Source of the DNA: Candidatus Pacebacteria bacterium CG_4_10_14_3_um_filter_34_15
GTDB taxonomy: Bacteria > Patescibacteriota > Microgenomatia > UBA1400 > PJMF01
Direction of reading: 5' to 3'
DNA length: 34,976 nt
NCBI GenBank assembly: GCA_002783105.1
Contig: PFJN01000048.1
Location: forward strand, 1 to 34,976
Positions 19,383 to 27,701 of the stretch are shown here, in pieces. The stretch's first letter is position 1. The number at the start of each line of letters is the position of its first letter. Under the pieces are notes generated by a model. It was given only the letters and a program-made list of their open reading frames with translations. It was not told the DNA's origin and did no database searches. Position numbers and translations under genes: made by a program.

Positions 19383-20270
19383 ATGACAAAAACTCTCGAT
19401 TCTCAATACAAAAGACTTCTCAGAGAAATTTTAGAAAATGGTACGGTCACGGAATCTCAACAAGGTGTAGATGCGCTCACTTTAATGGCACCTCAGCCAC
19501 TTCGATTTCGACTTTCAAATGGCTTCCCGATTATTACAGAACGAAAAATTTCCAAAAAAATTTGGGGTCAGGCAATTGGCGAAATTATTGGTTTTATCAA
19601 CGGAGCAAGAACTCAGGAAGAATTATCTAGCTACGGTTGCCGTTGGTGGAAATATTGGGTAACTGAAAAAAAGTGCAAAAAACGTGGTTTAGAGCCTGGA
19701 GATATGGGTCCTGGAAGTTATGGAGTTGCTTTTCATGATTTTCCAACTTCAGAAGGTCCAGTTTACAATCAATTCAAAAATATTATCGAACAAATTAAAG
19801 AGCAACCCCAGTTAAGAACTCATTTTATTACTCCTTGGATTCCTCAATATACGATCAGAGGTAAGGGTAAGCAACAAAAAGTTGTAGTTTGTCCTTGCCA
19901 TGGGTGGATTCACATCAGGATTATTGATAATAAATTAACTCTTCATATGTTTCAAAGAAGTAGTGATACCCCAATTGGCTTACCGGCAAACTTAGCTCAA
20001 TATGCAGCTTTAACCATGATGATTGCTCATGTTACCGGCTATGAAGCATACGAATATATTCATAGTTTTTCTGATGCACATATGTTTGTTGATCAAATTA
20101 AGCATGTTAAAACGATGCTTGAGCGTGAAGATAAAACTTTGCCCACAATGAAACTTAATGTTGGTTCAGGAAAAGCTAAGAAAGACTTATTCGATTTTAG
20201 AGTTGATGATTTCGAGTTAACTGATTACGATCCGCATCCAGGAATATGGGATATTCCTGTGGCAATTTAA
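19383..20270 (+). CDS. thyA: Thymidylate synthase ThyA
   Basis: Methylates dUMP to dTMP with methylene-tetrahydrofolate. It is 295 residues. The catalytic cysteine is in VCPCHGW (Cys172). The dUMP-binding elements follow: MFQRSSDTPIGLPANLAQYA (family form RSxD then N-x-x-x-Y) and the C-terminal DYDPHPGIWDIPVAI, which closes on the folate. The N-terminal half is more divergent from the E. coli enzyme than the C-terminal half. Unlike flavin-dependent ThyX, this reaction makes dihydrofolate, which needs a DHFR; a DHFR-family gene lies 2 kb away. Confidence 0.92.
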   Translation: MTKTLDSQYKRLLREILENGTVTESQQGVDALTLMAPQPLRFRLSNGFPIITERKISKKIWGQAIGEIIGFINGARTQEELSSYGCRWWKYWVTEKKCKKRGLEPGDMGPGSYGVAFHDFPTSEGPVYNQFKNIIEQIKEQPQLRTHFITPWIPQYTIRGKGKQQKVVVCPCHGWIHIRIIDNKLTLHMFQRSSDTPIGLPANLAQYAALTMMIAHVTGYEAYEYIHSFSDAHMFVDQIKHVKTMLEREDKTLPTMKLNVGSGKAKKDLFDFRVDDFELTDYDPHPGIWDIPVAI

Positions 20271-20764: not shown

Positions 20765-21715
20765 TTATTTAATTATTCGAATTACTTCAACCCCGAATTT
20801 TTTCAAAATTTTGTCACCATCAAGCATAGCGTATCCATCAGTAAAGTAGAGCTTTGATATTCCGCTACAAGCAACTAATTTGGCGCAAGCCGGGCATGGA
20901 AAAGTTGTTACATATATTTCGGTATCTAGAAGTGAAACTCCATCCTTAGCAGCCTTTGAAATTAGGGCAGCCTCAGCGTGAATGGCAGTTGAAAGATCAA
21001 TATTTTCACTCTTGTGAAAGCTATTTCTTGGATCGCTATCAATATATGGTGAATATGGAGTTGGCAGTTGTGTGTTGTGAGCAATCGCAATAATTTTTTC
21101 ATCTCTGAGTGTTTTCTCAATTGTTTCTTTTGACGAACTTCCAGAATTACCTTTAATGACTACTGCACCAACTTGACGCCACCAGTCAGAACTAAGTTTC
21201 TTTTGATTGTTTGCCACATCCATCATTTTTTTGGAAAATTCGTCTTCTGAAATTTCGACCGACGATTCAATTTGTTTTTTTTGTGTACTGTTATTTCTAT
21301 TCCATCTTAAAAAAGTTGGTTCAAATTCCACAAACTTATGTGTAAGATATTTTTTTTGGAGCCAGACAAAAATATCTTCATTTGGGAGGATATATTTTGG
21401 TTTTTCTTGAATTTGCTGAGAGCTAATTTCTAAAAATTTTTCAACAGACAAGAGACTGATTTTTCTTTCAGGGAAAAGTGCTTTTAGAGCAAGTTTTGCT
21501 TGGTTCGGGGATAGCGAACGAATCTCTTTTCTTAAGTAGTCAAATTCCTCATCTATCAAGGAGATTAATGACTCGTCTAAAATAAAAATTTCAGATTCGG
21601 GATATTTTTCCAATAATTTTACATATCCAGAGTGAATTACTGGTAGATAGAGAAGCAATTTTGAATTAGTGGTATTTTGTTCTTGGTGCGATTTTTGATT
21701 TTGGTTTTGATTCAT
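20765..21715 (-). CDS. dCMP-deaminase-like protein with an unexplained N-terminal half
   Basis: The C-terminal half (about residues 175-316) is a zinc-dependent cytidine/deoxycytidylate deaminase domain. It has WWRQVGAVVIKG, the catalytic HAEAA (His246, Glu248) and the metal ligands PCPACA (Cys274, Cys277). It would convert dCMP to dUMP for ThyA. The protein is 316 residues, about twice a normal dCMP deaminase. Residues 1-20 are a Gln/Asn-rich tail, and residues 20-140 form a separate domain I do not recognise (starting LLLYLPVIHSGYVKLL). It starts with a good AGAGGG Shine-Dalgarno 13 nt after the stop of the cytidylyltransferase gene, so the two are one operon. Confidence 0.8.
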   Translation of the reverse strand: MNQNQNQKSHQEQNTTNSKLLLYLPVIHSGYVKLLEKYPESEIFILDESLISLIDEEFDYLRKEIRSLSPNQAKLALKALFPERKISLLSVEKFLEISSQQIQEKPKYILPNEDIFVWLQKKYLTHKFVEFEPTFLRWNRNNSTQKKQIESSVEISEDEFSKKMMDVANNQKKLSSDWWRQVGAVVIKGNSGSSSKETIEKTLRDEKIIAIAHNTQLPTPYSPYIDSDPRNSFHKSENIDLSTAIHAEAALISKAAKDGVSLLDTEIYVTTFPCPACAKLVACSGISKLYFTDGYAMLDGDKILKKFGVEVIRIIK

Positions 21716-22286: not shown

Positions 22287-22341
22287 AACTTACTAGCATC
22301 CTACTATATGTTTATCTGTTGTGCTACCATATGTGAAAGAT

Positions 22342-22851
22342 ATGAAAGTTTCAATAATAGTTTCAATTACTGCAGATGGATTTATTGCTCAAAGTGTAGG
22401 GCAATCGTCATTAAAATGGACAAGCAAGGAAGACACAAAGTTTTTTGTGGAATATACAAAAAAAGTTGGTGTGCTTATCATGGGCTCAGCAACTTTTGAG
22501 ACAATAAATAGACCTCTTCCAGATAGAAAAATAATCGTATTAACTCGATCTAAAAAATATGATCAATTCGATTCAGATCAGGTTGTTGCAGAGGGTAGGG
22601 AGATTAAAGAAGTTTTGCAAGAGCTGGAAGCCTCAGGTCAAAAAGAAGTTGCTATTACTGGTGGTACAAGTGTTTATACTCAATTTATGAAAGAGAAGCT
22701 TGTTGACGAACTGTATTTAACAATTGAACCAATCGTATTTGGTTCGGGTCTCAAACTCTTTAATGAGTCTTTATATCAGAAATTAGAACTAGTAGAAATA
22801 ATTGATTTATCAGAACAAACAAAAGTATTGCACTATAAAATTATTCAATAA
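22342..22851 (+). CDS. Dihydrofolate-reductase-family protein
   Basis: Probable NADPH-dependent reductase of the DHFR/RibD C-terminal fold (169 aa from the ATG at 22342). Visible elements are SITADGFIA at the N-terminus, LKWTSKEDTKFF, the GSATFETI nucleotide-binding helix, PDRKIIVLTR, and the cofactor-binding ITGGTSVYTQFM. It is a plausible partner of ThyA, which oxidises its folate cofactor, but RibD-like reductases share these motifs, so I do not call it folA. A GTG start at 22321 is possible but would add seven residues before the first strand. Confidence 0.8.
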   Translation: MKVSIIVSITADGFIAQSVGQSSLKWTSKEDTKFFVEYTKKVGVLIMGSATFETINRPLPDRKIIVLTRSKKYDQFDSDQVVAEGREIKEVLQELEASGQKEVAITGGTSVYTQFMKEKLVDELYLTIEPIVFGSGLKLFNESLYQKLELVEIIDLSEQTKVLHYKIIQ

Positions 22852-22897
22852 TGATTTTAGGAACCCCCCAAACTTATTATTGGAGAGACCCATAAAA

Positions 22898-23362
22898 ATG
22901 ACGAACGACAAAGGTGAATCTACTAAAAAAATAACTCTACGTATGAAGTTATTTGACAAAAAATTGCCCATTCCAGAATATAAATCTGAGGGGGCTGCCG
23001 CTGTTGATTTGTATGCCAGGGTTGAAACAAAGATACCAGCCAAGGGAATTGGCTATATCCCGCTCAATATTGCTTTGCAACTTCCGGAAAACCACTGGGC
23101 TCTCATCTCTGCCAGAAGCTCGCTCCACAAGCGTGGTTTGATGATCGCTAATGGTATTGGTGTAGGAGATTACGATTATAGAGGTCCAAATGATGAATAT
23201 TTAGTTGCAGTTTATAATTTTACAGATACAGAGGTTGTCATTGAGAAAGCTGAACGAGTTGCACAACTAATTGTGATGTCTCGCGAACCAGTTGAGATAG
23301 TATTAGCAGATGATTTTGATGCTCCTAATCGCGGTGGTTTTGGTAGTACTGGAAAAATTTAA
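22898..23362 (+). CDS. dut: dUTPase (deoxyuridine triphosphatase)
   Basis: Hydrolyses dUTP to dUMP, keeping uracil out of DNA and supplying ThyA. It is 154 residues from the ATG at 22898, preceded by GGAGAG. Trimeric dUTPase motifs are in order: GAAAVDLYA (I), ISARSSLHKRG (II), GIGVGDYDYRGP (III, with the catalytic-region Asp), KAERVAQLIV (IV) and the C-terminal RGGFGSTGKI (V), which closes over the active site. An upstream frame opening at 22802 overlaps the reductase gene and adds non-conserved residues, so I rejected that start. Confidence 0.93.
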   Translation: MTNDKGESTKKITLRMKLFDKKLPIPEYKSEGAAAVDLYARVETKIPAKGIGYIPLNIALQLPENHWALISARSSLHKRGLMIANGIGVGDYDYRGPNDEYLVAVYNFTDTEVVIEKAERVAQLIVMSREPVEIVLADDFDAPNRGGFGSTGKI

Positions 23363-23645
23363 TTAATTAAATTTGTTGATTTAATTTCTAAAAATTTATT
23401 TTTGGCTTATGTGTAGCCAGCGAAAGAAAAAGCTGGCCTTCCCAGTCCTGATACTTTGTGAGCTAGTTTTTTCTTAAAATCAGTTTTTTAGCAAAGTTAC
23501 TCAAAAATTTAAAATTTAATTAATATGTCGGTCACAAATACATCATATGGTTTTTTACCTATTGCATACACACAATATATTGTGGTTTAGTTGCTGGTAT
23601 TGAAATAATTAAAACTTTTAAAAGTATTCGTAGTTAAGGGTAAAA
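23363..23645 (+). other. Intergenic region with competing stem-loops and a palindrome
   Basis: A 283-nt gap after dut. Directly after the dut stop is a weak AT-only stem (23365-23386). TGGCT (23403-23407) can pair with AGCCA (23415-23419). GCCAGC (23416-23421) can instead pair with GCTGGC (23432-23437), and CTGG/CCAG (23433-23445) is a third option, so these structures exclude one another. A T6 run follows at 23467-23472. No open reading frame or tRNA is seen. The layout could be an attenuator or a small RNA, but no known class matches. Confidence 0.35.
23571..23584 (+). promoter_or_regulatory. 14-bp perfect palindrome, possible operator
   Basis: CACAATATATTGTG reads the same on both strands and lies 61 nt before the Maf-like gene. 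It is a candidate site for a dimeric repressor; no regulator gene is adjacent. Confidence 0.4.
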
Positions 23646-24635
23646 ATGTTTGAGACTGCTCCAGTTGGCATTGATAGTTTTATAGAAATAGCTGAGCGCG
23701 AAGCTGAGCTAAAGTTTTCAAAAGAAGATTTAACTTTTTGGAACAATAATCCACCCGAACAGGTTGTTTTTGCTACTGGCAGTATTAGAAAAGCAATAAT
23801 GCTCATTTCTGAGATTGATAATTTTTCATTCAAGGTTATAGAAGACGGAAAACTAAAGCAAATATCTGATCCGCTAGATCTATTGAAATATTTTAATGAA
23901 AATGTTTACAACGGCAATGGATCGGTCAAAGTAAAAACATTTTTAGGTTATTTATTTGGAGTAGAACTTTATATTCATCCTGGAGAAGGAGAATCGAGTT
24001 CAAACGAATTTCCTTTGGAGGAGGCAAAAAATAAAGCCTCATATTTATATGAAGAAGAAGCAAATGGATATAAAGGAAGAGATATTTTAATTTTTAGTTC
24101 TGACACCGTTGATAAGCCAGATGCAGCAAAATTACCACTTGGAAAACCTGAAAATGAAAATGAAGAAAGTGGTTTTCCTTTCCCACAAAAAGTAGATTAT
24201 GTTGGTGATGACGCAGGCTTTGAGGCAGCGAAAGTAGAATATCTCATAGCCTGGAAAGAAAGATTTTATGTTGCTAGTAAAGAGATTATACATACAAATG
24301 CAATTGCGGTTTTAGATGCACTTACTGGTGAATTTATAGAGTTAGGAGATCTGGCCACTTTGGAGCTAAATGTTCCAATAGATCATGACAGACTAAGAGA
24401 AGCTATAGTTTACCATGATATGGCCGGTGGCGGCATATTACAACAATTAATAGAATGGGGAAACATTGACGCGATACTGAATTATTTTGATGAAATTTCT
24501 TTGCGATTAATTAAAGAACAGTCAGAAGAAATTATAAAAATGGCTCTAATGTGTCAAATAATGGGATCACCGCATGCTATTATTGAATTGGTTAGAATGG
24601 CAAATGAAAAAAGGGGAAATTTATATGGCAATTAA
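23646..24635 (+). CDS. Highly divergent Maf-like nucleotide pyrophosphatase (putative)
   Basis: 329 residues with scattered but correctly ordered resemblance to Maf house-cleaning NTP pyrophosphatases. VVFATGSIRKA (residues 40-50) stands for the usual LASxSPRR start, AKNKASYLY (127-135) for the AxxKA helix, LIFSSDTV (148-155) for the catalytic-Asp ADTV strand, and LGKP (165-168) for the GKP loop. HTNAIAVLDALTGEF (216-230) stands for the Tax-strand and MAGGGILQQ (259-267) for the AGAYxIQG element. Residues 1-35 and the last 40 or so are extra, and about 50 residues are inserted before AKNKA. The usual Arg pair is partly lost. It overlaps tmk by 11 nt, in a nucleotide-metabolism block, which supports the idea. 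Activity is uncertain. Confidence 0.55.
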   Translation: MFETAPVGIDSFIEIAEREAELKFSKEDLTFWNNNPPEQVVFATGSIRKAIMLISEIDNFSFKVIEDGKLKQISDPLDLLKYFNENVYNGNGSVKVKTFLGYLFGVELYIHPGEGESSSNEFPLEEAKNKASYLYEEEANGYKGRDILIFSSDTVDKPDAAKLPLGKPENENEESGFPFPQKVDYVGDDAGFEAAKVEYLIAWKERFYVASKEIIHTNAIAVLDALTGEFIELGDLATLELNVPIDHDRLREAIVYHDMAGGGILQQLIEWGNIDAILNYFDEISLRLIKEQSEEIIKMALMCQIMGSPHAIIELVRMANEKRGNLYGN

Positions 24636-25260
24636 AAAAGGTTTCTTAATTACACTTGAAGGTGGAGAGGGCGGAGGAAAAACCACTCAAGCAGTAAGTT
24701 TATATAAGAGATTAAAAAAGGCAGGCAAGGACGTAGTTATTTTCAGAGAGCCCGGTTGCACAGTAATTAGCGAACAAATTCGCGAAGTAGTTTTGTCTGC
24801 GAAAAATAAAAACATTGCATTCACGACAGAAGTTTTGCTTTTTCAAGCTGCTAGAGCTCAAATTTATGAAGAGTTGGTTTTACCTTCGATGCGGGCTGGC
24901 AAAGTTATTGTGATGGATAGATCCAGAGACAGTTCTGTTGTTTATCAAGGAATGGTTCGTGGGTTTGGCAAAAAAATGATTGAGCAACTTAACAATATTT
25001 CTACAAGTCGCACATTGCCAGACTTGACTTTGCTTTTAGATGTTCCTGTAAATAAAGGGCTTAAGAGAAGAGAGAATTCTGGAACTATAAATAGACTTGA
25101 TATGGAAGCCAAAAACTTTCATAACAAGGTCAGAAAAGCCTATTTAGAGCTTGCGGAAGAAGATAAATCAGGGAGATGGCGCGTTATTAATGCTGCTAAA
25201 TCAATTGAGAATGTTGAAGAACAAATGTGGGAAGCTATTTCTGATAAACTTGGTTTATAA
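24625..25260 (+). CDS. tmk: Thymidylate kinase
   Basis: Phosphorylates dTMP to dTDP, the step after ThyA. It is 211 residues from the ATG at 24625, preceded by GGGG 8 nt before the start. The P-loop is EGGEGGGKTT (residues 12-21). REPGCTVISEQIR is the dTMP-binding region, and VMDRSRDSSVVYQG corresponds to the DRxxxSxxAYQG motif. A lid region rich in basic residues follows (KRRENSGTINRLD). The start lies inside the end of the Maf-like gene (11-nt overlap), suggesting translational coupling. Confidence 0.93.
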   Translation: MAIKKGFLITLEGGEGGGKTTQAVSLYKRLKKAGKDVVIFREPGCTVISEQIREVVLSAKNKNIAFTTEVLLFQAARAQIYEELVLPSMRAGKVIVMDRSRDSSVVYQGMVRGFGKKMIEQLNNISTSRTLPDLTLLLDVPVNKGLKRRENSGTINRLDMEAKNFHNKVRKAYLELAEEDKSGRWRVINAAKSIENVEEQMWEAISDKLGL

Positions 25261-26658: not shown

Positions 26659-27057
26659 ATGGCAGATGATAATAAAAATCCCCTAGACGTTTTAGAAGAA
26701 TTGTTAAAACAGTCCGGTGGTGGCGCAGGAACTGGTGGCGCAGGAGTAGGTGCTGTGGCGGCAGGAAAAGCTTCACTATCTGCTGATGAAGTTGCGAAGA
26801 TCAAAGAAGAAGCTGAAAAAAAACTTGCTGAAGAGCTCGAAGTTAAGCGTCTAGAACTTGAACAGCACCAAGTTGAGCAAAGTGTTGTAGATGAAGTGAA
26901 AATGGCAGAACAGAGAGAAGAAATTGTAAAGATTAAAGATTCTGATGAATATAAGGCAAGAATACAGCAAGACTCAGATAAAAAAGCTAGTGATGACAAT
27001 AAGATTATTGCAGGCGATGGCTTTGAAATTGATCAATTAGATCACAAAAAGGTTTAA
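26659..27057 (+). CDS. Hypothetical Gly-rich/coiled-coil protein (132 aa)
   Basis: I do not recognise this protein. Residues 1-17 are a short acidic helix (LDVLEELLKQ), followed by a Gly/Ala linker (GGGAGTGGAGVGAVAAG). A long highly charged helix (about 42-115) follows, of coiled-coil character (EVAKIKEEAEKKLAEEL), with an acidic C-terminus. No membrane segment or signal peptide is present. The start has GGAG 5 nt upstream. Its stop and the next ATG are separated by 2 nt, so the two are one operon and may form a complex. It follows the leader hairpin at 26576. Confidence 0.65.
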   Translation: MADDNKNPLDVLEELLKQSGGGAGTGGAGVGAVAAGKASLSADEVAKIKEEAEKKLAEELEVKRLELEQHQVEQSVVDEVKMAEQREEIVKIKDSDEYKARIQQDSDKKASDDNKIIAGDGFEIDQLDHKKV

Positions 27058-27059
27058 TA

Positions 27060-27701
27060 ATGCTAAGTTCAGCATCAAATCATGGTTCAAGTATGGGTTC
27101 AGGTGGTATGGGTGGTTTTGGAGGTATGAGTGGTGGAGATAGTTTTGGCGAAGCAGCAGATGAGAGAAGTAAGATACAACAAGCCATGTCTAGTAATTCT
27201 AATAAAGGTTCTGGTGCAAGCTCTGCATCTGGTACTGGTGGTGCTGGAAGCACTCCACAAAATCAACCAATGGCTCAGTCACCAGCTGAACCAAGGGAAG
27301 TTGCTGAAATACCAGAGGAAGCAAAACGAGGGGTGGAGGATGTTTGGCTTGAAGTGAAGAAATTCTTTTCATTAAATGCATGGTTGGGAATTGATCCAGA
27401 AAACATGAACCCTGAGGAGCAAGCCCAAGCAAAGCAATTTCATGCAAAATACCAACAGTTAGATCAGGAACAACAAGCTGTTGCAAAACAAATGTACCAA
27501 GAAAAACTTCAAAAGAAAAAAATGTTAGAAGAAGAAGAGAGGCGTAAAAAAGAACAAGAAGCTCAGGAAAAAGAACAGTCAATCGTGATACCGTCTGGTC
27601 CTCAAAAAGGTGCTGGTCAAGAAGGAAAAACCAAAAAACAACAAGTGCTAAGCAAAATTAAGCAGGACAGAACTACACTTTCAACAAGTCAGGGAGAGTA
27701 G
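27060..27701 (+). CDS. Hypothetical Gly/Ser-rich protein with charged coiled coil (213 aa)
   Basis: I do not recognise this protein. Residues 1-85 are low complexity (Gly, Ser, Met, Ala, Pro; for example GSGGMGGFGGMSGGDSFGE) and probably disordered. Residues 90-115 form a compact segment (VEDVWLEVKKFFSLNAWLGI). A long Gln/Glu/Lys-rich coiled coil follows (about 118-183), then a basic tail. Its composition parallels the preceding gene, two nucleotides away. cysS begins 3 nt after its stop, so all three lie on one transcript. Function unknown; a link to translation is positional only. Confidence 0.65.
   Translation: MLSSASNHGSSMGSGGMGGFGGMSGGDSFGEAADERSKIQQAMSSNSNKGSGASSASGTGGAGSTPQNQPMAQSPAEPREVAEIPEEAKRGVEDVWLEVKKFFSLNAWLGIDPENMNPEEQAQAKQFHAKYQQLDQEQQAVAKQMYQEKLQKKKMLEEEERRKKEQEAQEKEQSIVIPSGPQKGAGQEGKTKKQQVLSKIKQDRTTLSTSQGE

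Follow-up and report, generated by a model that had tools for sequence, protein, structure and literature searches.

The gene between dut and tmk

The window, by which the whole analysed stretch of 34,976 nucleotides from a tiny, uncultured bacterium is meant, contains between the genes for dUTPase (dut) and thymidylate kinase (tmk) an open reading frame for a protein of 329 amino acids, called here X (Table 1). In the earlier note, made from the sequence alone, this frame was taken for a real gene overlapping tmk, and both points hold. ATG 23646 is the sole usable start, with an in-frame stop 12 nt 5' of it, and is preceded by AAGG, the Shine-Dalgarno sequence of X itself; the start of tmk lies most likely at 24625, behind its own AAAGGGG, and the overlap of the two genes thus amounts to 11 nt. 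X and tmk are probably translationally coupled. In the intergenic stretch 23363-23645 promoter and terminator signals did not rise above chance.

The genes of thymidylate synthase (thyA), a dCMP deaminase-type protein, a dihydrofolate reductase-like enzyme (DHFR) and dUTPase lie 5' of X and, together with tmk, form a dTTP-supply cluster. The setting in nucleotide metabolism that had been proposed for X is supported by its relatives as well, where tmk is found no more than two genes away in 10/10 family members. Elsewhere in the window (26659-27701), two small low-complexity reading frames rich in Gly, Ser and Glu lie between recR and cysS and have no Pfam matches.

Table 1. Positions of X, of its Maf-like features, of the neighbouring genes and of MazG-like proteins at the same place in relatives (Maf residue numbers after PMC3899018).
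Feature	Position	Strand	Basis and remarks
thyA, thymidylate synthase	19383..20270	+	Pfam PF00303, E=7.1e-64
dCMP/cytidine deaminase-type protein	20765..21715	-	Pfam PF00383, E=3.6e-12
DHFR-like reductase	22321..22851	+	Pfam PF00186, E=7.5e-21
dut, dUTPase	22802..23362	+	Pfam PF00692, E=1.1e-21
X, divergent Maf-like protein, 329 aa	23646..24635	+	ORF; 9 homologues; hhalign to Maf 96.2%
ATGSIRK, residues 43-49	23772..23792	+	S46 = Ser10, R48 = Arg12, K49 replaces Arg13
Insert of ~45-50 residues (~57-104)	23814..23957	+	No Maf counterpart in ten-member alignment; NGxG patch, N89 invariant, G101
E116 = Maf Glu33, metal ligand	23991..23993	+	Invariant 10/10; motif-anchored placement
K130 = Maf Lys52, in NKA	24033..24035	+	Invariant 10/10
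D153 = catalytic Asp70, T154 = Thr71	24102..24107	+	D invariant 10/10; T 6/10
GKP, K167 = Maf Lys82	24141..24149	+	K and P invariant 10/10
AGGGILQQ, Q266 = Gln153, YhdE-subfamily base-recognition residue	24423..24446	+	Q266 invariant 10/10; placed by motif order
tmk, thymidylate kinase	24625..25260	+	Pfam PF02223, E=2.8e-42; Shine-Dalgarno AAAGGGG at 24610-24616
MazG-like proteins of the dut-tmk slot	L096:3157-4092, L098:1061-1801, L099:1773-2576, L100:2645-3403, L104:1979-2899, L106:3813-4556		Below Pfam cut-off; L106 copy beside X

Likeness of X to Maf proteins

Maf enzymes cut unwanted nucleotides. Scans of Pfam, NCBIfam, PHROGs and PDB, run with the single sequence and with ten members, gave no usable match to the X family: the Pfam Maf model matched 0/10 members, NCBIfam returned one Maf-like match among the ten (E=0.067, below cut-off), and no single member reached the cut-off of PF02545 or of the NCBIfam Maf model. 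By profile comparison with hhalign, the X family matched 30 Maf proteins of its order with a probability of 96.2% (P=2e-9, score 69.4), and the value stayed at 96.1% without the window protein and at 96.0% when the Maf side was drawn from the order's other families; of the subsets of the X profile, L005-L010 gave 94.9% and L002-L004 gave 74.4%. The best of 100 column shuffles reached a score of 21.4 and a probability of 1.4%, reversed X gave 0.3%, and tmk, dut, DHFR and recR gave at most 0.4%. Because these controls stay so low, the remote assignment to Maf stands on sequence, and the homology put forward earlier can be regarded as well supported and very probably correct. When a Maf HMM was run without filters over 334 background reading frames, three X members came out on top, with weak E-values of 0.014-0.07; an HMM of X, in turn, placed every Ham1 protein below nearly all of the Maf proteins, its best E-value being 5.8e-7. 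The Ham1/ITPase profile (PF01725) matched X at only 0.3%, for comparison with 47% between Maf and Ham1 themselves. Two AlphaFold2 runs with the window protein and three homologues (four sequences) yielded models of low confidence (pLDDT 45.5, pTM 0.39; pLDDT 51.2, pTM 0.52). Foldseek found no significant match with either model and Maf was outside the top 50 in both, and on account of the low confidence of the models these lists were discarded as meaningless. For a Maf/ITPase fold of X the models thus speak neither way.

The Maf signature consists of Ser10, Arg13, Glu33, Lys52, Asp70 and Lys82; Arg12, Thr71 and Gln153 mark the YhdE branch (Tchigvintsev et al., PMC3899018). The Maf blocks cited in the earlier note were confirmed to follow one another in X in the right order, ATGSIRK (43-49), AKNKA (127-131), SSDTV (151-155), GKP (166-168) and AGGGILQQ (260-267), and this order exceeds chance, as judged from the invariance of key residues and from hhalign against shuffles. 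At Maf active-site positions S46, E116, K130, D153, K167 and Q266 are invariant in all ten X proteins. The assignment of E116 to Glu33 and of Q266 to Gln153 is based on motif order and invariance; hhalign gives the segment around E116 another placement, and its alignment of the C-terminal part is uncertain. Taken strictly, X departs from the six-residue signature, five residues of which are invariant and the sixth, Arg13, is conservatively replaced by Lys (K49) in every member. The YhdE set R-T-Q is complete in the window protein, which lacks the YceF set (aromatic-Gln-Glu) at the same positions; in the whole family R48 is kept in nine of ten members and T154 in six, with Ala or Val in the remaining four. 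The earlier suggestion that an altered Arg pair means a changed substrate choice is unsupported: the residue that differs is the phosphate-binding Arg13, whose counterpart in the ITPase RdgB is also a lysine (Lys13, PMC3899018), so it gives no pointer to the base pocket, and the base-pocket Arg12 is retained.

X exceeds ordinary Maf by about 130 residues, as had been stated, although these residues are distributed otherwise than was thought. The N-terminal extension (~35 aa) and the insertion between the S-x-R-K and Glu motifs (~45-50 aa) were both recovered, the distance from Ser to Glu being 70 residues in X and ~23 in Maf (PMC3899018), and a further ~28 aa are found between GKP and Gln. The C-terminal extension proved short: the end of X is only ~15 aa longer than that of Maf, and the C-terminus appears to include the normal last block of Maf, of the 'GLP' type.

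It can be said that X resembles the YhdE subfamily of Maf (PF02545) in the order of motifs, in the positions of S-x-R-[R/K], E, K, D, KP and Gln, and in the probable C-terminal block, and differs from it in Lys for Arg13, in its length and NGxG-bearing insert, in being missed by Pfam and NCBIfam, and in its confinement to one order. The Ham1/RdgB ITPases share a superfamily with Maf and the Lys with X, whereas X has DT and GKP motifs of the Maf type and not the motifs of ITPases.

Distribution of the family and the dut-tmk slot

Nine homologues, 21-34% identical to X, were found in the search of relatives, which places the family in 10/88 genomes of one order of Patescibacteria ('Ca. Pacebacteria'). 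It was not found outside the order among 374 genomes of the class and 380 of the phylum, both of which samples overlap the order. No phage match was found; a scan of IMG/VR with homologue L002 as the only query was empty, and a literature search, itself limited evidence, gave no description of the family. In seven of ten members tmk lies directly downstream of X, and in L007 one gene further; in L008 and L009 tmk is upstream, separated from X by a gene on the opposite strand, which in the L008 genome (locus L105) is a dCTP deaminase. Near X and tmk of genome G053, a 545-aa protein (L107:4300-5934, minus strand) has matches to thymidylate synthase, PterinBD-DUF4346 and MtrA and represents an unusual thymidylate synthase fusion.

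In relatives that lack X, the dut-tmk gap is empty (L097, L102) or contains another reading frame of ~250-360 aa (L096, L098-L101, L103, L104). Several of these proteins, together with one that stands beside X, make up a MazG-like family (Table 1), three members of which have weak Pfam MazG matches (E=0.004-0.0075), and whose profile matches MazG at 76% (P=2e-5, score 39; shuffle maximum 14.8). Known MazG-like members (PF03819) are all-alpha NTP pyrophosphohydrolases. The slot family has in common with X its place between dut and tmk, in relatives of the host; by sequence it is unrelated to X (profile match 0.1%). A search with the slot family matched 18/88 genomes, mostly beside tmk by coordinates, and at least nine genomes without X were counted as clear cases of a MazG-like protein in the slot, only a few of the 18 neighbourhoods having been viewed directly. 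X and the MazG-like family occur together, side by side, in G016 only (L106). Mutual exclusion of the two is suggestive only, the Fisher test not being significant (p=0.05-0.12) and the relatives being non-independent. The proteins L101:1804-2775 and L103:2120-3205, both on the minus strand, seemed MazG-like by eye (EExxE, ExxD) and were not counted, since the profile test gave 1%; they form a second type of slot protein, in which KIARNxxxYP-like motifs are also present.

The host genome also carries a recognised Maf gene (C52:5024-5578, L011). The encoded protein and six other Maf proteins of the same taxonomic family (L045, L049, L051-L054) have Gln at Arg12 and Ala at Gln153, residues which are kept as Arg and Gln by most Maf proteins in the order's other families and by X. 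These Q-T-A proteins may be a further Maf subfamily. It would fit these residues if X supplied YhdE-type specificity in a host whose ordinary Maf has lost both of them; a comparison of X with the presence of canonical Maf within the family was not significant (2/9 against 19/33, p=0.13).

Putative role in the thymidylate pool

From such comparisons we infer the fold, activity, substrate and role of X. The reading which we favour, and which is rather likely to be right, is that X is a far-diverged, YhdE-like member of the Maf superfamily, active as a pyrimidine-nucleotide pyrophosphatase tied to dTTP supply. X would probably hydrolyse pyrimidine (deoxy)nucleoside triphosphates to the monophosphate and pyrophosphate, with dTTP or UTP-type nucleotides, or their modified or damaged versions, as substrates. 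Metal binding and activation of water would fall to D153 and E116, and binding of the triphosphate to K49, K130 and K167, while the walls of the base pocket would be formed by R48, T154 and Q266. As a product translated together with tmk from the thyA/DHFR/dut/tmk cluster, the enzyme may trim or clean the thymidylate pool.

Three other explanations should be weighed. X could keep the Maf fold and nucleotide pocket and, instead of acting as a catalyst, sense nucleotides or regulate Tmk, which is improbable and still the best of the three. Mutants of Maf with Ala for Arg13 are inactive, and the replacement of this catalytic residue by Lys would agree with such a role, as would the 11-nt overlap with tmk and the added functions suggested by the N-terminal extension and the large conserved insert with its NGxG patch; however, all ten sequences, diverse as they are, share the catalytic Asp, the metal-binding Glu and the three lysines, a constancy unusual in an enzyme without activity, and in two genomes an opposite-strand gene separates tmk from X. 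Somewhat less probable still is an ITPase-like protein of the same superfamily acting on purine or other non-canonical NTPs: the Lys shared with RdgB (PMC3899018) speaks for it, but the profile comparison with Ham1 and the ranking by the X HMM speak against, the Arg12 and Gln153 of YhdE type are kept, and the host genome already has a Ham1 gene. That X is unrelated to Maf and alike in motif order by chance is highly unlikely, for the missing match to curated models and the low-confidence structure without a Maf match stand against the profile P-value with its clean controls and against the invariance of Maf active-site positions.

It is also conceivable, though tentative, that X represents a Maf subfamily of its own, set apart by Lys in the place of the catalytic Arg and by a subdomain with the NGxG patch, and that X swaps with a MazG-like pyrophosphatase between dut and tmk, takes over in its own family the pyrimidine specificity lost by ordinary Maf and is possibly complexed with Tmk. 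The neighbourhoods suggest that two pyrophosphatase folds without relation to each other can take the same genomic slot in dTTP synthesis. Should this exchange be true, the cellular role of such enzymes, not settled so far in the case of Maf, could be tested by swapping them. X would be a branch of Maf in minimal genomes that current family models miss, and its gene would be annotated as hypothetical.
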